Positions 19,221 to 39,413 of a stretch of 40,353 bases of DNA are shown here, piece by piece. The notes beneath the pieces are model-generated. The model made no database searches, was not told the origin of the DNA, and saw only the letters and a list, made by a program, of their open reading frames with translations. How positions within the stretch are numbered: the first letter of the stretch is position 1; the number at the start of each line of letters is the position of its first letter. This stretch comes from an uncultured Bacteroidota bacterium (GTDB lineage Bacteria > Bacteroidota > Bacteroidia > Chitinophagales > Chitinophagaceae). The stretch lies in NCBI GenBank assembly GCA_903831935.1, contig CAIKZP010000154.1, positions 1 to 40,353 of the forward strand, written 5' to 3'. The translations under genes were made by a program, and so were the position numbers.

Positions 19221-19415
19221 GTATTGATAATAAAGTTCCTGTGGCAAGCAGTACTAAATGAATAATTAAAATTCAATCATAAAACTATTCTTAAATGGGC
19301 AAAGTTCTCTGAAGTGTGTTTTCTAAAATATGTACTATATTGTCATGAAATAGTGTAGTATTACTTATTTAATAATAATATTAGACTTATTTTAGTGGTA
19401 ATTAGTAAAATAAGC

Positions 19416-20288
19416 ATGAAGCCGCATTATCATAAAGTTCCCAAAAAACTTGAAAACTCGTTTAGCTTACGTAAAGATGTGTCGGCCAATTTTGATACTA
19501 CTTGGCATTATCACCCTGAATTAGAATTACACTATATAAAACAAGGAGAAGGCATAAGATTTATAGGAGATAATATTAGTAATTTTTCGTCGGACGAAAT
19601 GTTGTTATTAGGCGAAAACCTACCACATACATGGAAATCGCATGATGCCTATTTACAACCTCAATCAGAACTAGCGGTAGAAACAACCGTTATGCATTTT
19701 CTACCGAATTGTTTGGGCCAAGAATTTTTGTCATTACCAGAATCTTATCAACTAACCCAATTGATTGAAAAAGCAAAAAATGGATTGCTTATTTATGGAG
19801 AAACAAAATGGAAACTATTGGCATTATTAGAAGCCGCCTACAATGCAGTTAACCTTGAACGTATTTCATTATTTATATCTATTTTAAATACACTAGCAGA
19901 AACCAAAGAATACGAACCTATTACTAGCTCACATGCTTTTTATCAGTCAAACCAGTTAGAAACAGATCGGCTCAATCAAATATATACATACACACTTAAG
20001 CATTATATGAACAATATTAGCTTATCTGAAATTGCATCATTAAGTTGTTTGAGCGTTACTTCTTTTTGTAGGTATTTTAAAATGATGACGAACAAAACTT
20101 ATACCGATTTTTTAACAGAAATTAGAGTTAGTTATGCATGTAAATTATTAATAGAAAATAAATCATTAACTGTTGAATCGGTAGGAAACGAAACTGGATT
20201 CAATAATGCTTCTAATTTTTTTAGACAATTTAAAAAGATGGTTGGCATTACACCAAAAGCATATAGAAAAAAATACATAGTAGGTTAA
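19416..20288 (+). CDS. AraC family transcriptional regulator
   Basis: I chose ATG 19416 (MKPHYHKVPKKLENSFSLRKD), giving 290 residues; a GTG at 19395 adds seven residues without family similarity. The N-terminal cupin-type ligand domain shows WHYHPELELHYIKQGEGIRFIGDN. The C-terminal 100 residues carry two helix-turn-helix motifs (ISLSEIASLSCLSVTSFCRYFKMM and LTVESVGNETGFNNASNFFRQFKKMVGITPKAYRKK) characteristic of AraC/XylS proteins. It sits between the divergent symporter-aldolase unit and the GH95-like gene 35 bases downstream, so it likely responds to a sugar and controls one or both. The 195-base upstream region shows no clear operator. Confidence 0.9.
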   Translation: MKPHYHKVPKKLENSFSLRKDVSANFDTTWHYHPELELHYIKQGEGIRFIGDNISNFSSDEMLLLGENLPHTWKSHDAYLQPQSELAVETTVMHFLPNCLGQEFLSLPESYQLTQLIEKAKNGLLIYGETKWKLLALLEAAYNAVNLERISLFISILNTLAETKEYEPITSSHAFYQSNQLETDRLNQIYTYTLKHYMNNISLSEIASLSCLSVTSFCRYFKMMTNKTYTDFLTEIRVSYACKLLIENKSLTVESVGNETGFNNASNFFRQFKKMVGITPKAYRKKYIVG

Positions 20289-20323
20289 TAAAAAAGTCTA
20301 TTTTCAAATAATAAAAATATTTA

Positions 20324-22648: not shown

Positions 22649-23890
22649 TTACTTACTCAAAGATTTATTATATCTAATTAGGGCTTCTAAAAAATAGTAA
22701 TCGGCATAGATAAGTGGTGCATCAATTTCTGCGCCATGCGGAATACTGCCAACACTATGTTTTAATAAAAAATTACCATTCTCACCAAGTTTTGATCGAT
22801 AGGTATCAGTTGCTAATGAATGTAAGATCGCTATAGCATTTTCTTTGTAGTTAGCACTTTTATTGCCAGCATAGTTTGCTAATTCAAATAAGGCAGATGC
22901 TGTAATGGCAGCAGCAGAAGCATCACGAAGTTTTGTTGTAACCATATAAGTTTTAGACCTAGGGCCTGGTGTATAACCTGCTTCTCCAATATTAAAATCC
23001 CAGAATGGTATTTTATCGGCAGGTAAAGTTTTTGCATTTAAAAACCAATCAGCCATACCTATAGCAGTTTTTAAAAACCGAATATCTTTTGTTTCTCTAT
23101 AAGCCATTGTAAAACCATAAATACCCCAAGCCTGTCCCCTAGCCCATGTAGAATTATCGGAATAGCCTTGAGCCGTTTCTCTAGCAATTACTTTGCCTGT
23201 AATAGTATCATAACATACTACATGAAAGGAACTATAATCGGGTCTGATTTGATATTTCATGGCTGTTAAAGCATGCTGAACGGCTATGTGTTTAAAACTC
23301 GTATCACCTGTTTCTTTAGAGGCAAAAAATAGCAATTCTAAATTCATTAAATTGTCTATGATTACCGGAAAATTGTACGATTTATTATTATTCCAAGAAT
23401 CAAACCTATTCCATGATTTAATACTTTTTGTTGTTTTATTATAACGTGTACTTAGCGATTTTGCAGATTGAATTAGTATGTCTCTATACATTTTATTCCC
23501 TGTAATTCTATAAGCATTACCCAAACTACAATAGGTCATAAAACCTAAATCGTGGTGTTCTGTAAAATTTTGAAGCGGATATAATTTTGTAGACCACTCT
23601 ATTGCATTCTCTTTTAATACTTTGTCTTTAGAATATTCAGCGGCCATCCAAAGGTTTCCTGGAAAAAAACCACTTGTCCAATCGTATAGATCAAAACCTA
23701 TCATTTTACCACTCTTGTCAATTGTTTTTGGAAAATGATTGGGTATTTTATTTGCCTCAACAACCATATATTTAAGTTGTTGTGTTGCAATATTTAAATT
23801 GTTTTCAATGAAACTGTCTTTATTACTTACAGGATAAAAAGCAGTTAAAGCAAAAACAAAAATTAGTGATAATATTAAAAATCGCTTCAT
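22649..23890 (-). CDS. GH88-like unsaturated glucuronyl hydrolase
   Basis: The 413-residue protein has a signal peptide without a lipobox (cleavage around residues 19-22) and should be periplasmic. It fits the (alpha/alpha)6 GH88 family: YDWTSGFFPGNLWMAAEYS (69-87), the aspartate of TEHHDLGFM (Asp114) and that of PVIIDNLMNLELL (Asp179), which match the two catalytic aspartates, plus STWARGQAWGIYG, FWDF, and RDASAAAITASALFEL. GH88 hydrates the 4,5-double bond of the unsaturated uronic acid left by lyases, releasing it from the oligosaccharide. It is the last gene of the lyase operon. GH105 is the main alternative, but the WARGQAW and HHDLGFM context favours GH88. Confidence 0.87.
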   Translation of the reverse strand: MKRFLILSLIFVFALTAFYPVSNKDSFIENNLNIATQQLKYMVVEANKIPNHFPKTIDKSGKMIGFDLYDWTSGFFPGNLWMAAEYSKDKVLKENAIEWSTKLYPLQNFTEHHDLGFMTYCSLGNAYRITGNKMYRDILIQSAKSLSTRYNKTTKSIKSWNRFDSWNNNKSYNFPVIIDNLMNLELLFFASKETGDTSFKHIAVQHALTAMKYQIRPDYSSFHVVCYDTITGKVIARETAQGYSDNSTWARGQAWGIYGFTMAYRETKDIRFLKTAIGMADWFLNAKTLPADKIPFWDFNIGEAGYTPGPRSKTYMVTTKLRDASAAAITASALFELANYAGNKSANYKENAIAILHSLATDTYRSKLGENGNFLLKHSVGSIPHGAEIDAPLIYADYYFLEALIRYNKSLSK

Positions 23891-23940
23891 TAGTAATTAA
23901 TTAATAATTTAAACATTAGGGGTATTTATTAAAACAGGAT

Positions 23941-25881
23941 CTATTTTTTTGGTGTAATTTGATAAGTATAAGTACCTGTTTTCGATATTTTTTTAGCAAC
24001 TAACTTTAATCTATACAATTCCTTTCCCCAAACATTTGATAATCTTGGATCAGTTTGTGGTATTACATCGTAAGAAGCAATAAAATCTGTTGGATTATAT
24101 TTTAAAATAATTGCTTTTGATTCTTTTTCAATAATAACCGACCCAACAGTAGATAAATTCGGTTTACCCCAAGTCATAAAATTAATTTGATTTGCTTCTT
24201 TCAAATCTTTTAATTCAAACTGATCAGTAATAATTAAAGCATTATCAGAAACTAGTTCATACTTACGATTCCAAGTATCTACAAACACGTCTTTACTATA
24301 TGCACCAGCCATATCTAATGAAAATATATGTTTCAACGAATCAAATACCACATTTTTTGCTTTGTATTCAGCACCAAATTGTTGTGGCAAACCATTAATC
24401 ATAGGAAGATTGTGGTAATTGCTTTGCATACTCCAAATAGAATAACGCTCATTGCTAAAAGTTTGTCTGGTATAGGTTCCTACACCAACATCAATGATTA
24501 ATGGCATAGCATCTAAATAGAGTGAGAAAGTACCAACATCATTGTGATTATGGCTTTCAGCATTATACCCTGCCTTAGCCGCAAAGAACAAACCATTGCT
24601 AGTTTTCATATAGCAAAACTGTGTTTGTGGATACCAAGCATAAGTATTTTGAGGTAGCGCTGCTTTTGTTTGTATTAATGAATTATGATTTGCAATGTTT
24701 TCTAATGTTCTAAAAATATCTCTACCTGCATTTATATCATCTCCATTTTTTTCTCTAGAAATTAAATAGGCCGCAAAACTTTGCATATCTGTACTTTTTA
24801 CTGCTAGCCCATATCTATAAATCGCACCTGCTTCTCCTCCCCCTTTTGCAGAAGCATCTGCAAAATTTACAACCCAACCATTTCCAACATAACTTTTAGC
24901 AATATACTCTCCCATATTTTTTATGATGGGCTCATTAAAAATAGAAATCTTGCCATTAGTGGCATTGCTTAGTAATTGTAAATAATCATACATTTTTCCA
25001 GCTGCATGGCCCCAGTAAGAAGGACCCTCTTCACAACCACCATCTTCATGATTGTAATTGATAAATTTATCTACCGATTCCATCGTGCGATAAACTGCTT
25101 TGGCTTGTTTGATAGGATTTTCTTCTAATAACAAATAACAGGTTAACATATTAAAATTGCACCAAGGATTCCAATTATTAACCATAGTACTTGGTTGTGC
25201 ATTGAATGCTTGCCACCAATAATCACTTCGCTCCATGTATGGATCAAGTATTCTATCTTGTAAATTCTTTCTTAATTTTTTAGATATAATAGGATTTGAT
25301 TTGTCGAATTCTTTATTAAAAAAATAATAAGTCCATGAAAGGAATGAACCCAAATCACCAGCAGTAAGATCAATTAATTGTTCATTAAAATCGGGCAAGG
25401 AACGTCTTGATTTTTGGGTGACCAAATGAGCTGATAATGCCCAAGAAGACATTTCACAGGTTTGCCAAACACCATTAATAATTTGTGGTATAAATCGTCC
25501 TTTACCTTCAGACAATTCTGCCATCACCAAATTACTTAAAGCAGTTAAATTAGATGTAAATGGCTTTTCCATTGCTACCCTACTTCCACTAGATTCAAAT
25601 TCTAAATAATCTGTTGCTGTAACTACTTTCCATTCGTAATTCAAATGTTTTTCGCCTAATTGAATTAATTCAGTTTTAAAAGTACTAGTATATTTATCCC
25701 AACCGGCTCTATCGGTATAATTTGGATATTTAATCCATTGTTTATTTGTTACCAAACTTGTCTTTACAATTTCTAGAGATGCTTTTTTTTGAAGCAAATT
25801 TCTATAATCATGTGCATACAATTGAAAAGACAATAGTAAACAAACTAGTAACAAAACTTTATTAAACAAATTCGTTTTCAT
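23941..25881 (-). CDS. heparinase II/III-type polysaccharide lyase
   Basis: The 646-residue protein has a signal peptide (residues 1-23, no lipobox), so it should be periplasmic. It consists of an alpha-toroid domain (about 30-400) with NNWNPWCNFNM (235-245) and CEEGPSYWGHA (283-293), and a beta-sandwich domain (about 415-646). The heparinase II/III signature HNHNDVGTFSLYLDAMPLIID starts at 444 and YHNLPMING is at 489-497. Likely catalytic or metal residues are the Asn235 region, Tyr289, His444/His446 and His490 (inference from lyase families such as PL12, PL21 and PL33). It cleaves uronic-acid glycans by beta-elimination; the exact PL family and substrate cannot be fixed from sequence alone. 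It starts six bases after the GH16 gene. Confidence 0.85.
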   Translation of the reverse strand: MKTNLFNKVLLLVCLLLSFQLYAHDYRNLLQKKASLEIVKTSLVTNKQWIKYPNYTDRAGWDKYTSTFKTELIQLGEKHLNYEWKVVTATDYLEFESSGSRVAMEKPFTSNLTALSNLVMAELSEGKGRFIPQIINGVWQTCEMSSWALSAHLVTQKSRRSLPDFNEQLIDLTAGDLGSFLSWTYYFFNKEFDKSNPIISKKLRKNLQDRILDPYMERSDYWWQAFNAQPSTMVNNWNPWCNFNMLTCYLLLEENPIKQAKAVYRTMESVDKFINYNHEDGGCEEGPSYWGHAAGKMYDYLQLLSNATNGKISIFNEPIIKNMGEYIAKSYVGNGWVVNFADASAKGGGEAGAIYRYGLAVKSTDMQSFAAYLISREKNGDDINAGRDIFRTLENIANHNSLIQTKAALPQNTYAWYPQTQFCYMKTSNGLFFAAKAGYNAESHNHNDVGTFSLYLDAMPLIIDVGVGTYTRQTFSNERYSIWSMQSNYHNLPMINGLPQQFGAEYKAKNVVFDSLKHIFSLDMAGAYSKDVFVDTWNRKYELVSDNALIITDQFELKDLKEANQINFMTWGKPNLSTVGSVIIEKESKAIILKYNPTDFIASYDVIPQTDPRLSNVWGKELYRLKLVAKKISKTGTYTYQITPKK

Positions 25882-25887
25882 AGACTA

Positions 25888-26700
25888 TTACATTAATCGA
25901 TAATATTTCACATAGTCAACTTTCATGATTGTTGTTGTAGCTTTCTTTGTACCAAATCCACCACTAACAATTGGGCCAGCCCAAGAGCCTACTGCATAGT
26001 TCATTACTTCTGAACTAAGAATCATAAATTCAGACTTTTGAGATACAATTGTTTTATACTCCCAAGTTTGTACACCATCAACAAAAAATCGATAATAAGT
26101 TGGCGTCCATTCAACAGTATATAAATGATAAGCGCCACTATTTACACCTAAGTCTGCAGTTATAAGTCCTGTAGTTTTATGACTTGTTCCGTATCCATCC
26201 CAATGAAGATTATGGTGTGCACGGCCATCCTTACTTAAGGTTTCTACTACATCAATTTCCATTCCTGCTGTTTGAGGATCGCCAATTGGATTACCCATTG
26301 TGGCGCTTTGAACCCAAAATGCAGACCAAGATCCTGATTGATTTGTAAAAGCAATTCGGGCTTCGAATTTGCCATATTTATATTCCTTATTGGTAGATAT
26401 CATTCCTGTATGATGCATCACCACACCTGCAATGGTATCAGAATAAACTTTTAATACTAAGTTCCCAGCTCCATCTGTTGAAACGGTTGTTGTATCGTTG
26501 TAGCCATCGTGTCTTACACCAGGATAACGGTGAGACCAATCCAACATATTTAATTGCGTTCCATTAAAATCGTCTTGCCACGCTAGCTCGTATTGAGCAA
26601 TTACTGGAACTGGTGGCGCAATAGGTGTTTCTGGAGTAGTATCTTTTTTACAAGACAATAATTGAATGGCCAAAATTAAATATACAAGTATACTTCGCAT
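25888..26700 (-). CDS. GH16 family glycoside hydrolase lipoprotein
   Basis: The 270-residue protein has a lipobox at QLLSC (Cys17) followed by KKD and a Pro-rich linker (23-33), which suggests surface exposure. The GH16 jelly roll starts with LAWQDDFNGTQLNMLDWSHRYPG. The catalytic motif is MEIDVVE (147-153), with nucleophile Glu148, Asp150 and acid/base Glu153, flanked by SGSWSAFWVQS and by HNLHWDGYG. The ending 'IMKVDYVKYYRL' is typical. GH16 enzymes cleave beta-1,3/1,4-glucans or galactans by retention; the specificity here is unknown. It is the only enzyme of the locus with a lipoprotein anchor. A strong terminator lies between susD and this gene. Confidence 0.88.
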   Translation of the reverse strand: MRSILVYLILAIQLLSCKKDTTPETPIAPPVPVIAQYELAWQDDFNGTQLNMLDWSHRYPGVRHDGYNDTTTVSTDGAGNLVLKVYSDTIAGVVMHHTGMISTNKEYKYGKFEARIAFTNQSGSWSAFWVQSATMGNPIGDPQTAGMEIDVVETLSKDGRAHHNLHWDGYGTSHKTTGLITADLGVNSGAYHLYTVEWTPTYYRFFVDGVQTWEYKTIVSQKSEFMILSSEVMNYAVGSWAGPIVSGGFGTKKATTTIMKVDYVKYYRLM

Positions 26701-26780: not shown

Positions 26781-28541
26781 CTAATTAGGCCAACCTGCGT
26801 TTTGTTTCAAGTTAGGATTCCTTTCAATTTCAACTTGAGGAATTGGCCATGTATTCATGTAGTCTCCACCATAAGTGTATCCATTTGCATTAGTACCCCA
26901 AACTTGTTGTGCACCATTACCGGTTTTAAATACAGCAGTTTTCCATGTATTCCAACGAACTTCGTCGAAATAATCAATTCCTTCATTTACAAATTCTATA
27001 CGACGTTCGTTTCTAACCCTATCACGTAAATTTGATTGACTAGTTACATAAGTACCTTTAGTAGCATCCGTTTGTTGTAACAAAGGCATACCAGCTCTAG
27101 TACGAACTTCATTTACTTTTAATATGGCTTCTGGAAGATTATTTAATTCAACTAATGCTTCGGCCCACATTAATAATACATCGGCATAGCGAATAATTGG
27201 AAAATCAATTGGTCCGTAACTTCTATTTAATAATTCAGTTGAATTTTCGTAAACAAATTTTCTGTGTAAATAATAAAAGAAAGTTTGTGTATCAGTTTGT
27301 AAATCGAAAGTTGGTGCAGTAGAAGCCCTATATGGAAATCTACTTATTACTTGTTGATTAGCGCCATTCAAAACACCGTTATAGGTATTATATGGAGTAA
27401 TTACAGTTGCTGCTAAACGTGGATCACGATTCAAATAAGCTTTCTGAATTCTTGCCTCGTTACCAACTGCCAAATACTTTGTCATATCTGCACCACGACC
27501 AGTTGCTGCAGTAATTTCAGCAGCAGTTAAACCGTCTCTTAAATAATATACTTGCCTTGCAGCTGGAGCCATTGTACTATATCCTGGTATAATAGCATCC
27601 CAAGAAAAGTTAGTACCATCAATATTTTCATACATATCAACTAAGCTATTTGTAGGAAAATAGGTATTCCAACAAGAACCGAATGAAGAACGAGTTCCAC
27701 ATAAAAATTGTGTAGTTGAACCTAATCCATTTACGCCAATATTGGTTAATGGAAAAATCATTTCATCACTTTGTTCATTAACTTCTTTAAACAAAAGACT
27801 ATAGTTAGAAAAAAGCGTATGACCTAAAGATTTTACTTGTGTAAAGTCAGCTACAGCTAAATCCCATTTTTGTGTATACATATATACCTTGCCTCTTAAT
27901 GCATAGGCAGCGGCTTTAGTTGCACGACCAAATGCAGCATTTCCTTTTGCATATTTGGTAGGAAGATTGGGTTCATTGATACAATCTGTAAGATCTTTAA
28001 TTACTTGATCCCAAACAGCTTGTTCTGTTGCTCTTGCTTTAGTTGCTTCACTAATTTTAAATGGTTCAAGATAAATGGGAACTCCTTTAAAAACTTGGTT
28101 TAATCTAAAATAGAAATAAGCCCTTAAAAATTTAGACTCAGCTATTAATCTTGCTTTTTTAGTGGCAACAGAAGGAGACTTTAAAGGAATATTCATGATA
28201 GCATCATTTGCGCGAACAATACCTTCATAAAAATTCTGCCAAGTACTACTAAACATACCATCACCAGGAGTTATTGTACCCTGCATTAGTGTTAGTGCTC
28301 CACGATTTTGACCAGTTAATGAGAATTGATCTATTTGATACAATTCTAAACCTGAGGCGGCAGCCGTATTTTGACCTAATCGCAAAGCATTATAAACACC
28401 ATTTACACCTAGGTCTGTTAGGTTGTCTGAAGTCCACATGGTTTCAGATGCCAAAGCATCATAAGGGGCAGTATCTAGCAACGTTTTTTTACAGCTAAAT
28501 AAACTTACCGCTATTAATAATATATAAAATGTCTTTTTCAT
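26781..28541 (-). CDS. SusD/RagB family surface glycan-binding lipoprotein
   Basis: The 586-residue protein has a lipoprotein signal (SLFSCKK, Cys17). It shows the SusD pattern: N-terminal 'LLDTAPYDALASETMWTSDNLTDLGVNGVYNALR', the TPR-like segment 'KARLIAESKFLRAYFYFRLNQVFKGVPIYLEP', 'RATKAAAYALRGKVYMYTQKWDLAVADF' and the C-terminal 'PIIRYADVLLMWAEALVELNN...VNEVRTRAGMPLL...RNERRIEFVNEGIDYFDEVRW'. SusD lids the SusC channel and captures oligosaccharides at the cell surface. It follows susC by 19 bases. The substrate is inferred only from the linked enzymes. Confidence 0.95.
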   Translation of the reverse strand: MKKTFYILLIAVSLFSCKKTLLDTAPYDALASETMWTSDNLTDLGVNGVYNALRLGQNTAAASGLELYQIDQFSLTGQNRGALTLMQGTITPGDGMFSSTWQNFYEGIVRANDAIMNIPLKSPSVATKKARLIAESKFLRAYFYFRLNQVFKGVPIYLEPFKISEATKARATEQAVWDQVIKDLTDCINEPNLPTKYAKGNAAFGRATKAAAYALRGKVYMYTQKWDLAVADFTQVKSLGHTLFSNYSLLFKEVNEQSDEMIFPLTNIGVNGLGSTTQFLCGTRSSFGSCWNTYFPTNSLVDMYENIDGTNFSWDAIIPGYSTMAPAARQVYYLRDGLTAAEITAATGRGADMTKYLAVGNEARIQKAYLNRDPRLAATVITPYNTYNGVLNGANQQVISRFPYRASTAPTFDLQTDTQTFFYYLHRKFVYENSTELLNRSYGPIDFPIIRYADVLLMWAEALVELNNLPEAILKVNEVRTRAGMPLLQQTDATKGTYVTSQSNLRDRVRNERRIEFVNEGIDYFDEVRWNTWKTAVFKTGNGAQQVWGTNANGYTYGGDYMNTWPIPQVEIERNPNLKQNAGWPN

Positions 28542-28560: not shown

Positions 28561-31500
28561 TTAGAAATTAACGTTTATACCTAAAGCATATTGACGCATT
28601 GTTGGATAAGCAATACCAGCACCTTCTTCAGGATCAACTCCAGGATACTTAGTAATCATTAATAAGTTTTCTCCAGAAATAAATATTCTAGCCCTACTTA
28701 TTGTTGCTTTTTTAGTAATCTTTTCTGGAATATTATATCCTATTTGTAAGTTCTTAAGCTTAATCCATGATGCGTTATATAACCATCTGTCACTAGCAAC
28801 ACTACTGTTTTGTGCATCACTTGCTTTTAATCTGGTATAATAGGCATTAATGTTATTCTTTGGATCGTTCGCATCTAATGGATTGTAAAAATAGTGGTCT
28901 TTTATTACCATATTAGATAATGCAAATCCATTTCTTACAGTTGAGTTATTGTAAGTATCATTCCAATAATATTGGAACCCTACAGCTCCTGCCCAAACCA
29001 TTGATAAATCAAAAGATTTCCAATTTAATTCTACATTAAATCCAAAAATATATTTTGGTAAAGTGGAAGTTGTAACAAATTTTTGATCATAAGAATTACC
29101 GTATTGGCCATCTCCATTTAAATCGGCATAAACCAAATCGCCATAATAGATTCCTGTAGCAGAAACAGTGTTTGCAGGTAATAATTTATATCCTGCAAGA
29201 ATCATTGCTTTAGCCCAGTTTAAATCATCGATAGTTCTAATCATACCATCTTTAGGTCCACCATTTTTATTAACTGTTCCATCACTATTAGTATAGGTTC
29301 CTGAACCTTTGTAAACTTCATATACACGGAACTCATTAATTTTATGACCTTCCAATATACGATTGGTTCCTCCAGAAGATACTAAGCCAAGATTTGATTG
29401 AAACACTTGTGCACCAGTTGCATCAGTAACATATCCTTCTACTAATGCGCCTTTATATTTTGTAACTGTATTGGTATTGTAAGCAAAATTTCCAGAAACT
29501 TTATAACCTAATTGGCCAAGTTTTCCACGATATCCTAAACTCAATTCTATTCCTTCATTACTTACACCTGCAGCATTAATTACTGGAGCAGAAGCTGTAC
29601 CAACAGTTAAAGGAATAGGAACAGTCGTTAAAATACCATCAGTTAAACGACGATACACATCTAACTCAAACAATATTTTATTATTTAAGAAAGCACCTTC
29701 TAAACCGATATTAGTATTGGTTGTTTTTTCCCATTGTAAATCAGGATTTGCAATACGACCAACAGCTAAACCAGAGTATTGAACATTATTAAAAGAATAC
29801 AATCTAGTTGCGTATGTTGATTGCCAGTCGTAGTTACCACTCGCATTATTTCCAAGTTTACCCCATGAAGCACGCAATTTTAAATTACTCAACCAATTTT
29901 TTGTGCTACTCATGAACTTCTCTTCTGTTATACGCCATCCTGCTGATACTGATGGAAACAATCCCCATCTTGAATCAGGAGAAAAACGTGAAACCCCATC
30001 ATAACGCATATTTCCTTCTAATAAATACTTATTATCATATGAATAATTTAGTCTTCCAAAATAAGAACGCATAGAATAATCATATTCTGTTCCACTTGTT
30101 GTTGTAGGTAATAATGCAGAACCTAAATTAGTAATTGTGTAATCAACTAACCCTAATTTAGAAGCACTAAAATCGTAGTAATTATAATACATTTGGTTAT
30201 ACCCTACCATTGCATTGATATCATGTTTACTTTTAATTTTAGTAGTATAGCGTAACACATTATCAAAAGTAGTTTGATAGTTTTTATCAAATCCATAATA
30301 CGTACTAGCAGTAGAAGGATCTCCAGGAGCCGCTTTTAACTCGTTAGTTGCAAAATTCCATTTTTCTTGCGGAACTGCATGACTATTGCTTTCTGCAAAT
30401 CGAGTTTGGTAGTTAAATCTTGTTTCAAAAGTTAAACCTTTTAATAAGTTAACAACCGCATACATCGTTGTATTAAAGCGACTTGTTTGGTTATCTCCAT
30501 CTGTATTATACAAATATGCAAAAATTGCATTAGCAGTAGAAGATTCTTCTGGTGCTTGTGGAAAACCATATTTACCTTGATAGAAAGGAACAACACCCGG
30601 AGTTGTTTGCCCTAGGTATGTAAATGCTGATCCTGTATTACCCAATTGAAAGGTTTGAGTAGAGGCAAAAGTTTGCGTACCAAGTGTTAACCATTTAGAA
30701 ACTTTAGCATCTAAATTTGCTCTTAATTGATAACGCTTTGTGCCAGTATTTTGCATAACACCATTATTATTCATATATCCAATAGATAATAAATAATTGA
30801 TTTTATCTGATCCACCATTAATAGAGATGTTATGATTAGCCAATGCTTGGTTATCAAAAACTGCATCAGCCCAATCTGTATTAGGATAAGCAATACTATT
30901 TGGAACACCTAATGCATTAAGTTGGTTAGGTATTTTTGAAGCAGAATCCCAAGCATTAATTGTTGCAGCACCAAATATTGGGGTTTGACCAACATTAACC
31001 GCTCCTTCATTAATCATACGCATATGCGTTGCATAATTGGAATTATAACTAGGTAAGTTAATAGGACTTGTACTTGAAAAAATGCCATTATAAGTAACAG
31101 TCGTTTTATTCTTCTGACCTTTTTTTGTAGTAATTAATATTACACCATTACCAGCCAAACTACCATAAATAGAAGCAGAAGCAGCATCTTTTAATACTGA
31201 AATAGATTCTACATCAACTGGATTTACGGCATCCATACTACCAATAATACCATCAATGATTATTAGCGGCGAATTACTACTAAGCGTTCCCGTACCACGT
31301 ATTAAAATACTTGCTCCATCCGAACCTGGTTGACCCGATCCTTGACGGGCATAAACACCGGCACTCAATCCAGAAAGAGAGGAAGATAAATTTGATGTTG
31401 GTCTATTTTCTAATTGTTTTGAAGAAATAGTAGCCACAGAACCTGTCATATTAACCTTTTTCTGTGTTGCATAACCTACAACAACAATATCGCCTAAATC

Positions 31501-31827
31501 AGTTGATTTGGTTTTAAGAACGATATTAACTGAGTTACTTGTTCCAACAACAGATTCTAAAGGTTCGTGATTTACTGAGGTAAAAACCAAAGTTGCACCA
31601 GTTGCAGCCTCAATACTGAAGCGTCCTGATTCATCAGTTTGGGCACCTACCGTTTTATTCTTAATTGAAACAGAGACTTGTGGAATAGGTTTTCCATTCT
31701 CATCGTTTACTGTACCAGATAGTTTTTTGGTTTGAGCCAATAAAATCATTGGCATACATAAAACCATCAAGGCAAATGTCATTTTTTTAATTAGACAAAA
31801 CTTCCAATGTTTGGAGAGCAATCGCAT
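28561..31827 (-). CDS. SusC/RagA family TonB-dependent outer-membrane transporter
   Basis: The 1088-residue protein has an N-terminal signal (hydrophobic residues 17-31), a carboxypeptidase-regulatory-like domain (about 35-105, LSGTVNDENGKPIPQVSVSIKN), a TonB-box-like DIVVVGYATQKK at 113-124, and a plug with 'IRGTGTLSSNSPLIIIDGI' and 'VESISVLKDAASASIYGSLAGNGVILITTKKG'. The rest is a beta-barrel ending in aromatic Phe (NVNF), as outer-membrane proteins do. With SusD it imports glycan fragments using the TonB-ExbBD energy system. In the usual SIYGSRAANG motif, Arg is Leu and one Ala is Gly. The extra N-terminal 15 residues before Met16 may or may not be translated. Confidence 0.95.
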   Translation of the reverse strand: MRLLSKHWKFCLIKKMTFALMVLCMPMILLAQTKKLSGTVNDENGKPIPQVSVSIKNKTVGAQTDESGRFSIEAATGATLVFTSVNHEPLESVVGTSNSVNIVLKTKSTDLGDIVVVGYATQKKVNMTGSVATISSKQLENRPTSNLSSSLSGLSAGVYARQGSGQPGSDGASILIRGTGTLSSNSPLIIIDGIIGSMDAVNPVDVESISVLKDAASASIYGSLAGNGVILITTKKGQKNKTTVTYNGIFSSTSPINLPSYNSNYATHMRMINEGAVNVGQTPIFGAATINAWDSASKIPNQLNALGVPNSIAYPNTDWADAVFDNQALANHNISINGGSDKINYLLSIGYMNNNGVMQNTGTKRYQLRANLDAKVSKWLTLGTQTFASTQTFQLGNTGSAFTYLGQTTPGVVPFYQGKYGFPQAPEESSTANAIFAYLYNTDGDNQTSRFNTTMYAVVNLLKGLTFETRFNYQTRFAESNSHAVPQEKWNFATNELKAAPGDPSTASTYYGFDKNYQTTFDNVLRYTTKIKSKHDINAMVGYNQMYYNYYDFSASKLGLVDYTITNLGSALLPTTTSGTEYDYSMRSYFGRLNYSYDNKYLLEGNMRYDGVSRFSPDSRWGLFPSVSAGWRITEEKFMSSTKNWLSNLKLRASWGKLGNNASGNYDWQSTYATRLYSFNNVQYSGLAVGRIANPDLQWEKTTNTNIGLEGAFLNNKILFELDVYRRLTDGILTTVPIPLTVGTASAPVINAAGVSNEGIELSLGYRGKLGQLGYKVSGNFAYNTNTVTKYKGALVEGYVTDATGAQVFQSNLGLVSSGGTNRILEGHKINEFRVYEVYKGSGTYTNSDGTVNKNGGPKDGMIRTIDDLNWAKAMILAGYKLLPANTVSATGIYYGDLVYADLNGDGQYGNSYDQKFVTTSTLPKYIFGFNVELNWKSFDLSMVWAGAVGFQYYWNDTYNNSTVRNGFALSNMVIKDHYFYNPLDANDPKNNINAYYTRLKASDAQNSSVASDRWLYNASWIKLKNLQIGYNIPEKITKKATISRARIFISGENLLMITKYPGVDPEEGAGIAYPTMRQYALGINVNF

Positions 31828-32128
31828 AGGACAATCGTTTTAGGTGAATTAAATGTTGATTATTAAAAGTTAGATTGGAATCCAACTAAAAAATCTACTT
31901 TACAAAAATCTATTTTGTTTAACGAAATGATGGGTGAGCATTGTAAATATTAAGGGGGACTATTATAAAGAATTAGCCTTATTAAGTTCTAAAATGGCAG
32001 ATAAGCATAGAATTTAATATAATCACCCTTAATATTTAAAATAATCACCCGTATGGGCATCTATTTAGGAAGAACAAATAGTTAATTTTAAACCCAATAG
32101 TTTCGGTTTAAATAAAGCAATTTTTAGC
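31828..32128. promoter_or_regulatory. divergent susC/HTCS control region
   Basis: These 301 bases separate the divergent susC and HTCS genes. They contain the inverted operator-like array listed separately (31932-32050). On the susC side there is an 11-base palindrome TTGGAATCCAA at 31875-31885, 48-58 bases before the susC ATG. On the HTCS side a near-consensus -7 box TAGTTTCG lies at 32098-32105, 23 bases before the HTCS ATG. No exact TAnnTTTG is seen on the susC side, which fits an activator-dependent promoter. Confidence 0.6.
31932..32050. repeat. inverted array of paired TCACCC half-sites (putative HTCS operator)
   Basis: The arms at 31963-31932 (minus strand) and 32019-32050 (plus strand) are 32 bases each and match at 27 of 32 positions; 13 of these are contiguous (CCCTTAATATTTA). 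Within the plus arm ATAATCACCC occurs twice, at 32019-32028 and 32041-32050, exactly 22 bases apart. The minus arm holds the degenerate pair ATAGTCCCCC and ATGCTCACCC at the same 22-base spacing. Two tandem half-sites two helical turns apart is the expected arrangement for an AraC-type DNA-binding domain, and mirror placement toward both genes suggests control of susC and the HTCS. The binding protein is inferred. Confidence 0.7.
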
Positions 32129-35100
32129 ATGAAAATTCTACAATCATTTATAGCTTCAACTCTATTCATGCTTTTAACTGTATGTTCGAAAGGACAAATA
32201 GTAGAATTCAATCATATAACTAATGAAAATGGATTATCAAGTAATTCTGTATTAGCAATATGTCAAGATGCGCTAGGTTATATATGGCTTGGTACACCTA
32301 ATGGTTTAAATAGGTATGACGGTACCAATATCAAAACATATAGCGTAAATAATAATAAGAACTTCCCTCCTAATATATATACCTTATATACAGATAGCAA
32401 TAAAGACATCTTGGTAGGCACACACGAAGGATTAAAAAAATACCTAGCAGCAGCCGATCTTTTTATACCAGTAAAAATTCCAGGTATTCGAACCGAAGCA
32501 GTTACTTATTTATATGAAGATCAAAAAAAGAATCTATGGATTGGTACTTCAAATGGGCTATTTGTTTTAGACATCACTAGAGACACTAGTAAAATACAAT
32601 CCTTTTATAGTTCAGATAATTCCATATCAATTGCTGCTAATTATATAAAAGCTATTTACGAAGACCACAATGGAACAATTTGGATAGGTACAATTAATGG
32701 CCTCACGCAAATACAACAAAGAAATGGCAAATGGCATTTTCAAAACTTTCGCAACATTTCTACCGATCAAGGAAGTTTAAGTGCTAGTTATATAACTTCA
32801 ATTGTAGAAGATGGAATGCAAGGTTTATGGATAGGGACACTAAAAAACGGGGTTAATAGATTGGCTTTAAATACTGGTCAAATTAAAAGATTTCTATTTC
32901 AGAATAATAGTCCAACAGGAATAGTTAATAACAATATAAGGCAAGTTGTATTAGGACAAGATGGTAAAGTATGGATAGGTACACAAGAAGGTATCAGTAT
33001 TATTGACCCGACCAACTTTGCAATACAATCATATCAACACGATCCAAAAAATAAAAAAAGTTTAAACCAAAATTCAGTTTATAGTATTTATCAAGACGCT
33101 CAAAAGTCTATGTGGATTGGCACCTATTTTGGCGGAGCTAATGTTAGTTATTCTGCTAATACAAAATTTAACCTTATACAAAATAATGAAGGAAAAATAG
33201 GTTTGAGTAATAATGTAATTAGTGGAATTGTAGAAGACAATAAGGCAAATTTATGGATAGGAACAGAAGGTGGTGGATTAAATAAAATTGATGCTCAAAC
33301 AAAACAATTAACTGTTTATAAAAATATCATTAACAATGCTTCTAGTTTAAGTTCAAACTTAATTAAATCAGTTTATAAAGATAGAGATGATCAAATATGG
33401 GTAGGTACAGCGCAAGGTGGAGGTTTAAATCTATTTGATGCTAAAACTAGCACTTTCAATAGAATGTTGTTTGAAGAAAATTATGAAAAGAACGAGTTTT
33501 CAACACACAACGAAATACTATCCATTTTTGAAGATTCAAAAAATAGATTTTGGCTAGGCAGAACTCAAGGAATAGAATTATTTATTAGAGATAAAACAAA
33601 TTTAATTCCAGTAAAAAACAACCCATTAACTGGTAAAGACAAAGAATCATTAAATGCTAAACTAAAAGTAGCCAGAACCTTTCAAGAAGACAATAAGGGA
33701 AGATTGTGGATAGGTACTAATTATGGATTATATCTTATAGATGGCAATTATGTTAGAAATATTTGCAAAAAAGATGCCGTTAATTGTATTACAAAAGACC
33801 TTAATGGAAATTTATGGTTTGGATTAAATGGCGGATTAGGAATATACAATTATAAAAATGGTAATTACAATCACATAAACAATATTCTACTATCAGAAAA
33901 ACGGATATTGGGAATTATTGCTGATAAGCTTGGGAATTTATGGCTAAGTACAGATAAAGGGTTGATTAAATTTAATCCATTAAATAATTCCTGTCAAATT
34001 TATAAAACAAGCGATGGGATTGCCGCAAATGAATTTAACTACAACGCCTATTTTCAAAATAGTAAAGGTGAAATTTATTTTGGCGGATATAATGGTATAA
34101 CCAATTTCATTCCTGAACAAATTGAAACAAATAATACCATATCAAAATTGGTATTTACAGGATTAAAAGTAAATAATGCAAAAGTTGAAATATTAGATAG
34201 TTATGGTTTACTTGAAAAAAATATCAACCAAACCACAGAAATAAAATTTAAATACAATCAAAACATTTTCTCTTTAGATTTTGCGTTATTAAACTTTATT
34301 AAAAGCAACAAAAACAAATACACATACAAGTTAATAGGATTTGAAAAAGAATGGACAGAAACCAATAACACAACAATTTCATATGGCAATCTCCCTTATG
34401 GCAGTTACAGGTTAATTGTTATGGGATCGAACAATGACGGAATTTGGAGTGAACCTTTGGAAATGAGCATTCGAATGTTACCGCCATTTTGGTTAACCTG
34501 GTGGGCTTATACATTTTATGGAATTATAATTTTAATGCTACTGTTTGTAATACATCGATTTTTCTTTTTCAGAGCAATGCTTGTGAAAGAAGAGGAATTA
34601 CACCAAGTTAAAATGAATTTTTTCACCAATGTATCGCATGAAATATTAACGCATTTAACGTTAATTATGACGCCAATTGAAAAGGTTATTGAAAGCAAAC
34701 AACTAGATGATTCAAATACACAAAAACTAAGTTTAGTAAAATCAAATACAACTCAATTATTAAGACTAGTTAGGGAGTTAATGGATTTTAGAAAAGCAGA
34801 TACTAATCATTTAAAATTAGAAATAGGCAAATACAATTTGATTGAATTTTTACAAAGCATATTAAATAGTTTTCAGGAATTAGCCAATTCAAAAAACATT
34901 CAATTAACATTCAAACACAAAGAAGATCTTATAAATATTTACATTGACCAATCGCAGATTGAAAAAGTGTTTTTTAATTTAATTAACAACGCATTAAAAT
35001 TTACGCCAGACTATGGCAAGGTTACTGTTAGTGTAGATCAATTAGACAATAAAGTAAATATATCTGTTATTGATAATGGCAGAGGAATACATCCAGAATA

Positions 35101-36175
35101 CATATCTAAATTATTTACAAACTTTTTTCAAGTAGCAGATCATGGAAAACAAAATACTGGATATGGCATAGGCTTAGCATTGTCTAAAAACATTATTGAA
35201 TTACATAAAGGCAACATTACTGTAGAAAGCGAAATCAATAAAAAGAATAGTTATACCTGTTTTAAAGTGTCTTTACAAAAAGGAAATGAACATTTAAAGG
35301 AATTTTGGCAACTGAATGATGCTATTACTAGTACTCAGCCAATTATCGAAAAATTGATCACAAATAATATTATTGCGCCAAACAATTCTAAACTAAGTAT
35401 ACTCATTGTAGAAGACAATTTAGATTTATGCCAATTATTAAAAGAAACTTTTGAAAAAGAGTATACTATTAATATCTGCAACAATGGACTAGAAGCCTGG
35501 AATTTTGCAATAACAGAAATTCCAGATTTAATTTTAAGCGATGTGATGATGCCAGAAATGAATGGGTTTGAATTATGTGAAAAAATAAAAACAGACACTC
35601 GAACAAGTCATATTCCTGTTATATTGTTAACCGCCAAAACAACAGAGTCTGAACAGATTGAAGGTTTAATTAATGGTGCAGACCTTTATTTAACCAAACC
35701 ATTTAACAATAAAGCATTGGCATTAAATGTTCGAAATTTATTAACCCTTAGGAAGAACTTAAGAAACAAATTTTCTGAAGAATTAAATTCAGCCCCCCCA
35801 ACAGAAAAAGCAGTAATAGATACTCATTTTTCTAGTACTATTGATAAAGATTTCTACAACAAATTAATTGATTTAATCCACGAACATATTGAAGATCCTG
35901 AGTTTGGTGTAAATATGCTATCTAGAAAAGTAGCCATGAGTGCCCCTATTTTGTATAAAAAAATAAAAGCACTAACAGATATGTCTGTGAATGATTTTAT
36001 TAAATCAATCAGAATGAAAAAAGCGGCAGAATTATTATTAAAAAATGAACTAAACGTTTCGGAAGTATCTTATATGGTTGGATATAATGACCGAAAATAC
36101 TTTAGCCGAGAATTTAAAAAACAATATGGCAAATCACCTAGTGAGTTTATGAATGATTTTAAAAATTCTCTTTAA
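32129..36175 (+). CDS. hybrid two-component system sensor/regulator (HTCS)
   Basis: The 1348-residue protein fuses all parts of a glycan-sensing system. After a signal peptide (1-22) there are 14 propeller repeats with lWiGT-like motifs (about 50-655), enough for two seven-bladed propellers, then a Y_Y_Y domain (about 700-783) and a membrane span (about 793-815). The cytoplasmic part has a HisKA domain with His837, an HATPase (N box LINNALKFTP 951-960, DNGRGI 982-987, GYGIGLAL 1011-1018), a receiver domain with Asp1138 and Lys1190, and an AraC-type HTH (about 1245-1343). The H-box reads SHEILTHLTLI rather than SHExRTPLTLI. It is divergent from susC and probably activates this locus in response to a periplasmic oligosaccharide. 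Confidence 0.95.
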   Translation: MKILQSFIASTLFMLLTVCSKGQIVEFNHITNENGLSSNSVLAICQDALGYIWLGTPNGLNRYDGTNIKTYSVNNNKNFPPNIYTLYTDSNKDILVGTHEGLKKYLAAADLFIPVKIPGIRTEAVTYLYEDQKKNLWIGTSNGLFVLDITRDTSKIQSFYSSDNSISIAANYIKAIYEDHNGTIWIGTINGLTQIQQRNGKWHFQNFRNISTDQGSLSASYITSIVEDGMQGLWIGTLKNGVNRLALNTGQIKRFLFQNNSPTGIVNNNIRQVVLGQDGKVWIGTQEGISIIDPTNFAIQSYQHDPKNKKSLNQNSVYSIYQDAQKSMWIGTYFGGANVSYSANTKFNLIQNNEGKIGLSNNVISGIVEDNKANLWIGTEGGGLNKIDAQTKQLTVYKNIINNASSLSSNLIKSVYKDRDDQIWVGTAQGGGLNLFDAKTSTFNRMLFEENYEKNEFSTHNEILSIFEDSKNRFWLGRTQGIELFIRDKTNLIPVKNNPLTGKDKESLNAKLKVARTFQEDNKGRLWIGTNYGLYLIDGNYVRNICKKDAVNCITKDLNGNLWFGLNGGLGIYNYKNGNYNHINNILLSEKRILGIIADKLGNLWLSTDKGLIKFNPLNNSCQIYKTSDGIAANEFNYNAYFQNSKGEIYFGGYNGITNFIPEQIETNNTISKLVFTGLKVNNAKVEILDSYGLLEKNINQTTEIKFKYNQNIFSLDFALLNFIKSNKNKYTYKLIGFEKEWTETNNTTISYGNLPYGSYRLIVMGSNNDGIWSEPLEMSIRMLPPFWLTWWAYTFYGIIILMLLFVIHRFFFFRAMLVKEEELHQVKMNFFTNVSHEILTHLTLIMTPIEKVIESKQLDDSNTQKLSLVKSNTTQLLRLVRELMDFRKADTNHLKLEIGKYNLIEFLQSILNSFQELANSKNIQLTFKHKEDLINIYIDQSQIEKVFFNLINNALKFTPDYGKVTVSVDQLDNKVNISVIDNGRGIHPEYISKLFTNFFQVADHGKQNTGYGIGLALSKNIIELHKGNITVESEINKKNSYTCFKVSLQKGNEHLKEFWQLNDAITSTQPIIEKLITNNIIAPNNSKLSILIVEDNLDLCQLLKETFEKEYTINICNNGLEAWNFAITEIPDLILSDVMMPEMNGFELCEKIKTDTRTSHIPVILLTAKTTESEQIEGLINGADLYLTKPFNNKALALNVRNLLTLRKNLRNKFSEELNSAPPTEKAVIDTHFSSTIDKDFYNKLIDLIHEHIEDPEFGVNMLSRKVAMSAPILYKKIKALTDMSVNDFIKSIRMKKAAELLLKNELNVSEVSYMVGYNDRKYFSREFKKQYGKSPSEFMNDFKNSL

Positions 36176-36176
36176 T

Positions 36177-39100
36177 TTAATTACTTAGAATTTTAACTGG
36201 CCCAAATAAACCAGAAGCTTGCAAAGGACTACTAGGTTTAAAATTATTTACAGGACACCAAGTTGGTCGTTCATTAACAGGTAATTTACTATCTCCAATT
36301 AATCTATTTACCCAAGTATTCACTACTTCAATTTTAATATCATTAGTACCTGGCTTAACCATTTTAGTGATATTTAATTTATAAGGAGCTGTCCACAATC
36401 CTCCAACATAAATTCCATTAACAGATACTTTGGCCATAGCTGTTACTGCGCCTAAATCAATAAAAGTTTCTTTATTAATATCCTTTTGGTTTATTTGAAA
36501 TGTAGTATTGTAAATAGCAGTTCCAGAATAGTATTTTATTCGATCATCGGTAGATTTTGTCCAGTCTTGTAAAGTATCAAAAACAACTTGTTCGCTAGGC
36601 CCCCTTTGAGCAGCACTAAAATTCAATTTCCATGGACCCTTTAATTGAGCAACTGTTTTTGGAATGGGGAAATTTAATGAAATGCTTGATCCTATTGCTT
36701 TTTGAGCTGGTTTTCTAAAAACAATGAATACACTTTCATAAGGTGCTAATTGCAATGGAACAGTGGTTGATTTTTCGTTTTGAGTAAAGCCAGCAAGGTT
36801 ACGCATATAGCCTGTAGTTGCTTCCCATAATTCAGGCTGCAATCCTTTAACCCTAAATGCAGGATTAATTATTTTTGTTTCTTGTGTTTGGTTCGACAGA
36901 AAATAAATTTCTGTATTACCCAAATTTCTATGACCATAATGGATAGATAAATCAGTTGGAATAGCACAATCAGGTATACAATTAATTAGTGCCATTGCTT
37001 GTTTCATATCCATTCCATTTAATATCATTCCCTTACCAAATTTTCGCGATGTGATTTTTACACCGTCTACACTACCCCATAACTCAGCAGCCATTTTTTT
37101 AATTTGTATATCTGCATTGGGTTGGTTTTGCAAACTAGGCGAACGCTTGGGTGCTGGCCCTAATATTACGGCTCCATCAAATACCAATTGTTTAATTTTT
37201 GCAAGTAATGCAGGACGCATGGTTTCCATTTTAGGCAATACCATCATTTTATATTGTGTACCGTGCGGAAGTGTAATTAAACCATCTTTTACCGTCATGA
37301 ATTTTTCAATCACTTCTGCATTCATATAATCGAACTGATAACCAACTGGTAATTCAGGATCAGTAACGCCAGTCATTTTAGGCGCATCTTCTCCAATAAA
37401 ATAAGCCACATCAGCCACATTCAACCCTTGTTGTAACATGAAATTATTACGCTTTAAATACGTTGTATAAACATCCATTTGCGAAAACCAAGTGTTCTTT
37501 CTATTAAACTCATTTCCAAACCAAGCATTCATGCCTGGATTTTTGTCTTCATATGGTTGTGTGATATAAACATGCAATAAAGTATTATTGATTCCTTCTG
37601 CAAAAAAGCGATCGCCTCGTTGTTTAATAGTTGCAGGATATCGGCTGAAAGGGTTGCCAGAACAAGTGTTTGACTCTGCAGAGATTTTTGTTTTTCCATA
37701 AATATGTCCACAAGAAGTAGCTGCACGATTTTCAATATTGCCTAATTCTCCTTCACTCCAAAACTCACCACCTATTTCGTCTGACTGTCCACCATACATT
37801 AAAAACTCACTCGGAAAACCCCAGTGGCCATAGTTTTCTAACCAAGTTCTTAAACCATTTTTATGACTCACTTCCCTTAAACCACCAACATAATCGTATG
37901 CAACTTTATCTGCCACCATTCTGCGCATATCCCATAAAAATCTGTCGGATGCTAATTGACTATTTACTACCATCCCATTGTAAACAGGTAAATAAGGAAG
38001 CGCACTATACCCATATCTTTTTTGAAAATCAATTAAAAAATCATCCGTAAAATTTTGACCACCTGTTTCATAACTATCCTGTACAACTACTTTAAATGTT
38101 TTTCTGTCTTCGGCAGGAATTCGTTTGAGTATTTCACCCATATGACCATTAAAATGTTTTTCAACTAATTGCTTACTCATTTTATCAACTTCATATCCGG
38201 TAGCTTCTGGCGATGCAGGAGAATTAACAGTTCCTGTTGGCGTCATCCCTGTTCTAGAAATAATCCAATCACCAGCTGGTACATTCCAATTAAGGGTACC
38301 ATCGGCAGATAAATATTTACTAATGTCTATTACTTTAGACCCATCAATTAAAGTACTGGCATCATTCACTACAGCTTGGTCATTCCACAAATAATCTTTC
38401 CAATAAGGTAGCGGTGTAGGATGCATTTTTGCCAAAGTCTTTTCGCTATATCGCTCTACCCTTGGCGATGCATACAAATCAATGGATGCAATACCAGATT
38501 TTGGTTTTTTGTTTTTAAATATTACTCGAAAGTTTTTTGCAGTGATGGCCGAAAAAGAAATTACCACAGGTGCAAAAGGATCAAATCCTACATTTAAGGC
38601 ATTATTAGAACGACTCATATTAAAATCAGTGATAGTAATATACTCGCCTTTATCAGATTCATATTGAAGTGAAACATTTGCAGACATTGGATTTTCGGTA
38701 GGTCTAATAGCAATACTTCTTGCAGTAAAAGTTTCTTTCGCATTTAGATTAACTATAAAATCAGAACCTGTAGGAAAATTAATGCCCGTTTTTTTATCTC
38801 CATCAAAAAGGGTAAATAAACTATCTACACTAGGCAATGAACTTACAGAAGCGTTTAATGTATTTAGTACTAATGAATTATTTTTTGGAGCAGGATAAGC
38901 AATCAATTTAACATCTTGAAAAAGTTGAATGGGTTTGTCTAATTTTTTTGATAGCTGCAAAGGTCCACTCACTTGCGTTTCAGAAGAAATTAAATAACGC
39001 ATGGCATCTGTAGATTTAATCCAAGGACCACCAGATTGACTCCATCCTGGCGAATTAAAAATGCCAATTTCAATATTTAAAGCTGTGGCTGTTTTTAGGG

Positions 39101-39413
39101 CTGCGTGTAAAATATCCCACCACTCCTCACTTAACATTTTTACTTTACCATAAGCTACATCCTTCAAGCCAATATTACCAATAAACGCACGGTTAATCCC
39201 TGCTTTTTTCATGGCATATAAATCATTAATAACGCCTTCTTTTGAAATATTATCAGAAATCCAATACCAATACACACTGGTTTGAATGCTATCTGGCGGA
39301 TGTACAAATCCAGCTTCTAATAGTTGGTCAGATACTTTGGTTTGATTGGTTGACCAAGCAACAAATACCAATAATGTAATAAGGCAGAAAACAGCCAAAA
39401 AGGTTTTTTTCAT
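36177..39413 (-). CDS. GH106-like alpha-L-rhamnosidase
   Basis: The 1078-residue protein has a signal peptide (about 1-21, no lipobox) and is probably periplasmic. The N-terminal TIM-barrel opening 'DSIQTSVYWYWISDNISKEGVINDLYAMKKAGINRAFIGNI' (41-81) and 'IEIGIFNSPGWSQSGGPWI' (114-132) are typical of GH106. Candidate acidic active-site residues are in VVQDSYETG (Glu449) and in the QSDEIGGEFWSEG segment (546-555). A galactose-binding-like beta-sandwich ends the protein (about 930-1078, LKGPWKLNF ... ASGLFGPVKIL). GH106 removes terminal alpha-L-rhamnose from pectins, ulvan and other polymers. The stop is one base from the HTCS stop. A second paralogue lies upstream. Confidence 0.85.
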   Translation of the reverse strand: MKKTFLAVFCLITLLVFVAWSTNQTKVSDQLLEAGFVHPPDSIQTSVYWYWISDNISKEGVINDLYAMKKAGINRAFIGNIGLKDVAYGKVKMLSEEWWDILHAALKTATALNIEIGIFNSPGWSQSGGPWIKSTDAMRYLISSETQVSGPLQLSKKLDKPIQLFQDVKLIAYPAPKNNSLVLNTLNASVSSLPSVDSLFTLFDGDKKTGINFPTGSDFIVNLNAKETFTARSIAIRPTENPMSANVSLQYESDKGEYITITDFNMSRSNNALNVGFDPFAPVVISFSAITAKNFRVIFKNKKPKSGIASIDLYASPRVERYSEKTLAKMHPTPLPYWKDYLWNDQAVVNDASTLIDGSKVIDISKYLSADGTLNWNVPAGDWIISRTGMTPTGTVNSPASPEATGYEVDKMSKQLVEKHFNGHMGEILKRIPAEDRKTFKVVVQDSYETGGQNFTDDFLIDFQKRYGYSALPYLPVYNGMVVNSQLASDRFLWDMRRMVADKVAYDYVGGLREVSHKNGLRTWLENYGHWGFPSEFLMYGGQSDEIGGEFWSEGELGNIENRAATSCGHIYGKTKISAESNTCSGNPFSRYPATIKQRGDRFFAEGINNTLLHVYITQPYEDKNPGMNAWFGNEFNRKNTWFSQMDVYTTYLKRNNFMLQQGLNVADVAYFIGEDAPKMTGVTDPELPVGYQFDYMNAEVIEKFMTVKDGLITLPHGTQYKMMVLPKMETMRPALLAKIKQLVFDGAVILGPAPKRSPSLQNQPNADIQIKKMAAELWGSVDGVKITSRKFGKGMILNGMDMKQAMALINCIPDCAIPTDLSIHYGHRNLGNTEIYFLSNQTQETKIINPAFRVKGLQPELWEATTGYMRNLAGFTQNEKSTTVPLQLAPYESVFIVFRKPAQKAIGSSISLNFPIPKTVAQLKGPWKLNFSAAQRGPSEQVVFDTLQDWTKSTDDRIKYYSGTAIYNTTFQINQKDINKETFIDLGAVTAMAKVSVNGIYVGGLWTAPYKLNITKMVKPGTNDIKIEVVNTWVNRLIGDSKLPVNERPTWCPVNNFKPSSPLQASGLFGPVKILSN

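Follow-up and report, generated by a model that had tools for sequence, protein, structure and literature searches.

Mirror-image predicted operators between susC and a hybrid two-component regulator gene in an uncultured Chitinophagaceae bacterium

Why would the DNA between two divergent genes carry the same tandem array twice, in mirror image? The question is raised by a 301-nt intergenic region that separates a susC gene, on the minus strand, from the gene of a hybrid two-component system (HTCS) regulator, on the plus strand, in a 40,353-nt stretch of DNA from an uncultured bacterium of the Chitinophagaceae (contig CAIKZP010000154.1; the whole stretch is called the window below). By comparing sequences, we established the two arms of the array, their spacing, orientation and conservation, their co-occurrence with the HTCS and the single clade that holds both. 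The array is probably a docking site for the neighboring HTCS, in which one arm, a tandem operator of the canonical HTCS type, probably drives susC, and the mirrored copy suggests that the HTCS controls its own gene. We give the whole explanation, mirrored HTCS operators composed of an ancestral susC activator site and a gained autoregulatory copy, a probability of roughly two in three.

Mirrored arms and their recognition unit

The two 32-nt arms lie 55 nt apart and match as an inverted pair at 27 of 32 positions, as the original prediction had described; ungapped extension lengthens them to 38-nt arms that are 82% complementary. None of 300 dinucleotide shuffles of the 301-nt region reached 27, the best giving 24/32. 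The prediction also named four half-sites, spaced by 22 bases within each arm, and this observation of arms and half-sites is confirmed: the right arm holds two perfect copies of ATAATCACCC, and the left arm holds ATAGTCCCCC and ATGCTCACCC, at 8/10 each. One of the 300 shuffles equalled the tandem repeat (18/20 for a 20-mer at lag 22). The genome search proposed with the prediction returned the exact pattern ATAATCACCC-N10..14-ATAATCACCC a single time in the 3.5-Mb assembly (212 contigs, 96% complete), the match being the one in this intergenic region.

Profiling of 26 half-site units from 13 arms gave a bipartite unit, with a CCC box, a TTTA box ∼12 bp upstream and an invariant A between them. 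CCC was present in 26/26 units, an invariance that is partly selected because the anchors were chosen by eye; no such selection affects the profile searches made afterwards on new loci. The spacing was 22 bp in all 13 arms of 7 loci, and in 10 further loci found with an ungapped position weight matrix (PWM). Bipartite units of about one helical turn would be expected, because the HTCS DNA-binding domain contains two helix-turn-helix (HTH) motifs with one recognition helix each (PMC11253607, available text). A 13-mer, CCCTTAATATTTA, is identical between the two window arms, and had been taken as a core kept beyond the needs of half-site binding. This claim did not hold: the HTCS-facing arm of the sister genome G060 reads CCCTAAGTATTTA in place of CCCTTAATATTTA, such that its two arms differ there, and the unit profile explains the core. 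We therefore rejected the core as a separate element; it fits better as the bipartite unit's upstream box.

In Bacteroides, predicted HTCS operators are direct repeats of two sites on one DNA face, 21 bp apart on average (Ravcheev et al. 2013, PMC3878776, as far as its text was available). The arms described here resemble them as direct repeats of two conserved sites that precede genes of the HTCS's own locus, and differ in their 22-bp spacing and in a second, inverted copy that faces the HTCS gene in one genus. The earlier suggestion that tandem half-sites suit the AraC-type HTH of the HTCS is supported by this published architecture, and by the co-occurrence of the site with close HTCS relatives (see below). 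In the available main text of PMC3878776, "inverted repeat" and "divergent" have 0 occurrences, the single "autoregulat" concerns Crp, and no mirrored pair or HTCS autoregulation was found described. Neither a mirrored HTCS operator nor HTCS autoregulation was found among the matches listed in a literature search that had most subscription journals and bioRxiv preprints outside its reach. As far as these texts go, the tandem site has an architecture already published for HTCSs, and the mirrored, lineage-specific second operator is the new part.

Distribution of the two arms

Within the genus, 6 of 147 genomes carry this SusC (E <= 1e-200): the genome of the window and five that match G060 to G064 in their coordinates. 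All six loci keep both arms and the 22-bp spacing, with an interarm gap of 55 bp in the window and 54 bp in the other five, where the arm-to-arm match is 22, 17, 17, 17 and 17 of 32. As aligned, the conserved feature is the four half-sites plus their geometry. Depending on the locus, the susC start lies 95, 96 or 104 nt from the susC-facing arm. In the four-genome subclade G061 to G064, mean pairwise identity is 0.91 in the susC-facing arm and 0.90 in the HTCS-facing arm, with 0.51 between the arms and 0.77 over the whole region. In the same subclade (L037, L032, L126 and L036), an extra CCC(C) box was seen by eye ∼20 bp upstream of the distal HTCS-facing half-site; missing from the window, it is a possible third half-site.

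That mirror identity peaks in the window and is lower in its relatives, and that the second copy was detected in the genus only, might be explained by a small mobile element, with the arms as its terminal repeats, or by a recent, functionless inverted duplication. To look for further copies, we searched seven genomes with a profile of the 13 arms (R1), scoring 150 candidates per genome of 3190 to 6503. There was no match above 16.2 bits outside this intergenic region among the candidates scored, whereas the arms, which match by construction as training sequences, scored 27 to 37; a weak second target is possible because only this share of the candidates was scored. Both arms are also kept genus-wide at fixed spacing, and stand out from flanking DNA in the four-genome subclade. 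We rejected the mobile repeat because no further copy exceeded 16.2 bits among the candidates scored, and consider this origin very improbable.

The inverted pair could instead act as a long hairpin, in the form of an RNA element or a DNA cruciform. As RNA, the window stretch indeed folds far better than its shuffles (z −5.84, 0/200), but the five genus orthologues gave z values of −1.87, −0.86, +0.40, −0.67 and −0.77, and the hairpin is thus not conserved. In addition, neither divergent transcript would contain both arms, since both predicted −7 elements lie outside them. A fold confined to the window led us to reject the hairpin, the least probable of the explanations considered.

In the family, 21 of 394 sampled genomes contain SusC at E <= 1e-230. 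Without the window and G138, whose SusC coordinates equal those of G062, these amount to 19 genomes with 20 loci (L153–L172), one of which (L159, the G065 locus) was already in the R1 training set. R1 found a susC-facing site in 11/20 loci, 10 of them outside the training set; its sole other match among the 20 was one of 5.1 bits in L162 (E 7.3). A PWM was also scored over 750 nt around the susC start, against a null of 100 random sequences of fixed composition. The 11 site-bearing loci scored 24.8 to 46.2, versus a null maximum of 6.1, and eight others scored −5.7 or less. For an HTCS-facing site, the PWM score was −0.9 or less in all 20 loci (null 95% point −1.8, with L172 just above it).

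A full-length relative of the HTCS (45–51% identity) adjoins susC in 12 of the 20 loci, divergently in nine (L159–L161, L163, L167 and L169–L172) and in tandem, HTCS then susC, in three (L153, L155 and L162). Of these 12 loci, 11 have the susC-facing site, compared with none of the eight loci classed as HTCS-free, a class assigned from ∼6 kb upstream of susC only. The site, upstream of a susC-type operon beside an HTCS gene, thus goes with a related HTCS and is absent without one, the exception being L155. The HTCS-facing arm was detected in 0/9 divergent loci outside the genus. The original prediction had held that orthologous susC/HTCS intergenic regions should keep the paired motif; the outcome is mixed, in that the susC-facing pair largely behaves in this way, the HTCS-facing arm went undetected in the divergent loci outside the genus, and L155 retains both genes but no convincing site.

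Could another AraC-type regulator bind these sites? The HTCS as binding partner is itself deduced, and the window encodes a second AraC-type regulator at 19395-20288. However, presence of the site tracks the HTCS relative throughout the family, and the loci in which no HTCS adjoins susC lack it. One open reading frame (ORF) upstream of susC was scanned in each HTCS-free locus, and these eight comprise two LacI-type regulators, four FecR-type proteins, one transposase and one 3-keto-disaccharide hydrolase. A different AraC-type regulator is therefore improbable, and the adjacent HTCS remains the preferred partner. Alignment of 19 C-terminal domains (G063 left out) shows that HTCSs of site-bearing loci keep xLYKK and DRKYFSxEFKK-like stretches with few changes; L167 and L169 read DSKYFS in the second stretch, and L155 reads DRRYFSQEFRK. 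The HTCSs of L040 and L085, two divergent pairs described below, differ more in both stretches. This tracking of site presence by the putative recognition stretches is suggestive only.

Two records from these surveys deserve mention. In L190 (G435), the place upstream of susC that the HTCS occupies in other loci holds a DDE-type transposase gene. The record title of L033 (JADCRZ010000029.1), Williamsia sp., an actinobacterial name, looks wrong; G476, with the same SusC coordinates, is in the window's family.

On a maximum-likelihood tree of 28 SusC rows (G060 with only 440 residues; midpoint-rooted for drawing), the six both-arm rows group together as a single clade (100/100). They are joined in the next starred group by L115, L160 and L161, with the susC-facing site only, and by L154, which has no HTCS. 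In the simplest history, whose direction we infer, the HTCS-facing arm appeared a single time, in an ancestor shared by the genus members with this locus. The susC-facing copy looks old and widespread, and the HTCS-facing copy looks like a newer addition in one genus.

Promoter geometry and proposed regulation

AraC-family activators typically place their promoter-proximal half-site beside the −35/−33 region; the regulator considered here, an HTCS, differs from them in its fusion to a sensor kinase. In Bacteroidota, the −7 element has the consensus TAnnTTTG, accompanied by TTTG near −33 (PMC7366714, available text). When TAnnTTTG is compared with the DNA beyond the susC-facing site, in the downstream direction, the mean match over 17 loci is highest at offset 21 (3.88/6), followed by offset 20 (3.53), relative to a mean over offsets of 1.84 (standard deviation 0.54). 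With 10 representatives, offsets 20 and 21 tie at 3.5. All six genus loci have NAnnTTTG at an offset of exactly 21, which G065 does not, and TAnnTTTA follows the HTCS-facing site by 31 to 32 nt in 6/6 genus loci. The proximal susC half-site would thus lie at about the position of the −33 box, and the HTCS-facing one a helical turn further out. An imperfect tandem repeat in the window (31889-31916; AAAAATCTACTTT and AAAAATCTATTTT, 15 bp apart) overlaps the predicted susC −7 element.

We infer binding, activation and autoregulation, with its sign. The array would comprise two mirror-image operator copies of the adjacent HTCS, each a tandem pair of bipartite AraC-type units 22 bp apart that could seat two DNA-binding domains on one DNA face. 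The susC-facing copy would be the ancestral activator site; its proximal CCC ends 20 to 21 nt before the −7-like element, near the −33 position, where phosphorylated HTCS may recruit RNA polymerase for transcription of susC and the rest of its operon. A single gain among the ancestors of the locus-bearing genus members would be the simplest origin of the HTCS-facing copy. Lying 31 to 32 nt before the −7-like element of the HTCS gene, this copy most likely places transcription of that gene under the control of the HTCS itself; the same putative operator faces the predicted HTCS promoter in all six genus loci. The interpretation offered with the original prediction is partly supported, in that the arms do face susC and the HTCS gene, as its proposal that the inversion serves both divergent genes requires, but the mirror image is not general and was detected in the genus only.

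A competing explanation is that both arms act on susC alone, with the HTCS-facing arm as an upstream helper or looping site. The gap of 54 to 55 bp, kept in all six genus loci despite diverging sequence, would be expected if the arrays were held in register, and a studied HTCS provides a precedent: the BT1754 promoter is low, constitutive and not responsive to fructose, its signal (PMC3404733, available text). Against a helper role, the HTCS-facing array points at the HTCS gene, at a fixed distance from its −7-like element, and susC outside the genus seems to manage without such an array. We regard the helper role as rather unlikely. The constant gap in diverging DNA hints at such a register; alternatively, it may reflect two fixed promoters. 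In a more elaborate arrangement, the four half-sites would form one spacing-locked complex, in which two HTCS pairs, one per arm, touch across the gap and couple both promoters, the sensor then switching the uptake operon and its own gene together; this wiring would have arisen once, by adding an inverted copy of the ancestral single operator. Such coupling is a tentative idea, about as doubtful as the helper role.

Several points weigh against the explanation by an ancestral activator site and a gained autoregulatory copy. L155, a tandem HTCS/susC locus, scores only PWM 4.1 and has no convincing site despite its HTCS. The Fisher test of site and HTCS co-occurrence (p = 7e-5) overstates independence, because it counts loci that share ancestry within the family. 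Four of the six consensus letters are reached at offset 21 by no more than 9 of the 17 loci, the best other offset giving eight, and both predicted −7 elements are consensus matches. Between the window and G060, identity is 0.81 in the HTCS-facing arm, below the 0.86 of the whole region (interarm 0.72, susC-facing arm 0.97), and this pair thus shows no HTCS-facing constraint beyond the CCC boxes and the spacing. As aligned, the HTCS-facing arm is plainly constrained in the four-genome subclade and not in this pair. A held-out profile of nine arms (R2), from which the window and G060 arms were excluded, recovered three of those four arms at 13.0 to 15.2 bits, with a best background of 16.8, and did not recover the HTCS-facing arm of the window. 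Since R2 scores at background level, the subclades have diverged beyond the span of a nine-arm profile, and because its recovery is poor, a diverged HTCS-facing arm outside the genus could be missed.

Binding of an HTCS at the polysaccharide locus that it controls has been observed by chromatin immunoprecipitation sequencing for the BT1754 and BT0366 systems (Lynch and Sonnenburg 2012, PMC3404733, available text). The present locus resembles them in having an HTCS that would act at the locus it controls, here as a prediction, and differs from BT1754, whose promoter is constitutive, in that the mirrored operator predicts autoregulation. HTCS sites in the cited literature, so far as its text was available, are Bacteroides predictions, whereas the site described here can be traced with its regulator from the genus into the family. 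The promoter geometry can be traced too, as can a change placed on the tree, the inverted copy that faces the HTCS gene itself. If the explanation is true, these loci offer a natural before-and-after comparison of how an HTCS works when it lacks an autoregulatory operator and when it has one.

Gene neighborhood and other divergent pairs

Coordinates of the array and the surrounding genes are collected in Table 1. The regulator gene is of the HTCS kind, as the original prediction had stated: Pfam places Reg_prop, Y_Y_Y, HisKA, HATPase, receiver and HTH_18 domains in one chain, which thus combines sensor, kinase, receiver and AraC-type HTH. Its receiver domain contains the SHIP motif described for HTCS receiver domains (PMC11253607, available text). 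The glycoside hydrolase (GH) family GH16, heparinase II/III-like and GH88-like genes (22649..26700, minus strand) are the probable remainder of the susC operon. Beyond them, the AraC-type regulator gene noted above (19395-20288) and then a GH95-like gene occupy 19395-22648, and a gene for a GH106 rhamnosidase, at 36177-39413, is oriented convergently to the HTCS gene. The nearby GH95-like, GH106, GH16, GH88-like and heparinase-like genes suggest a rhamnose- and uronate-containing glycan as the substrate.

Table 1. Predicted operator elements and neighboring genes of the susC/HTCS intergenic region (window coordinates)
Feature	Position	Strand	Basis or remark
susC-facing tandem operator (predicted)	31932..31963	-	Sequence comparison; conserved unit reaches ∼31971 (TTTA box)
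susC-facing distal half-site ATAGTCCCCC	31954-31963	-	22 bp from proximal half-site
susC-facing proximal half-site ATGCTCACCC	31932-31941	-	22 bp from distal half-site
Interarm spacer	31964..32018	.	55 bp; sequence poorly conserved
HTCS-facing mirrored tandem operator (predicted)	32019..32050	+	Conserved unit starts ∼32011
HTCS-facing half-sites	32019-32028 and 32041-32050	+	22 bp apart
Predicted susC −7 element GATTTTTG	31903..31910	-	Consensus TAnnTTTG; 21 nt downstream of proximal CCC
Predicted HTCS-gene −7 element TAATTTTA	32083..32090	+	Consensus match; 32 nt downstream of proximal CCC
SusC-like TonB-dependent transporter	28561..31827	-	Pfam
HTCS regulator, AraC-type DNA-binding domain at C-terminus	32129..36175	+	Pfam; SHIP motif in receiver domain
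SusD-like protein, 3′ of susC, same strand	26781..28541	-	Pfam
GH16 gene	25888-26700	-	Pfam, ORFs
Heparinase II/III-like gene	23941-25881	-	Pfam, ORFs
GH88-like gene	22649-23890	-	Pfam, ORFs

Other divergent HTCS/susC pairs were sought by scanning contigs with the window HTCS. The best 80 of at least 572 relatives gave 79 loci, a few of which are close and some of which end at contig ends. In 13 of these 79, a divergent susC match lay within 2.5 kb upstream (tblastn with 10 SusC queries; >1 kb away in L063), and nine pairs were examined after removal of four orthologues. The best direct repeat was at lag 21 in L040, L085, L102 and L106 (p 0.017, 0, 0.033 and 0.15, with 60 shuffles each). For inverted pairs, p ranged from 0.05 to 0.92 over the nine unrelated pairs, with L077 and L102 at 0.05. 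Applied to the orthologues G062, G061 and G063, the same shuffle method gave inverted-pair p values of 0.42, 0.07 and 0.68, and in the four-genome subclade it gave no best repeat at lag 22; because the method is weak, and poor even on known orthologues, mirrored arrays may exist in unrelated pairs undetected. In L085, at ∼7930-7968, near the start of the HTCS frame (the HTCS start is uncertain), lies a near-perfect 21-bp direct repeat, TACAATTGATCCAAAAAC (17/18), possibly a single HTCS-type operator of an unrelated divergent HTCS/susC pair.
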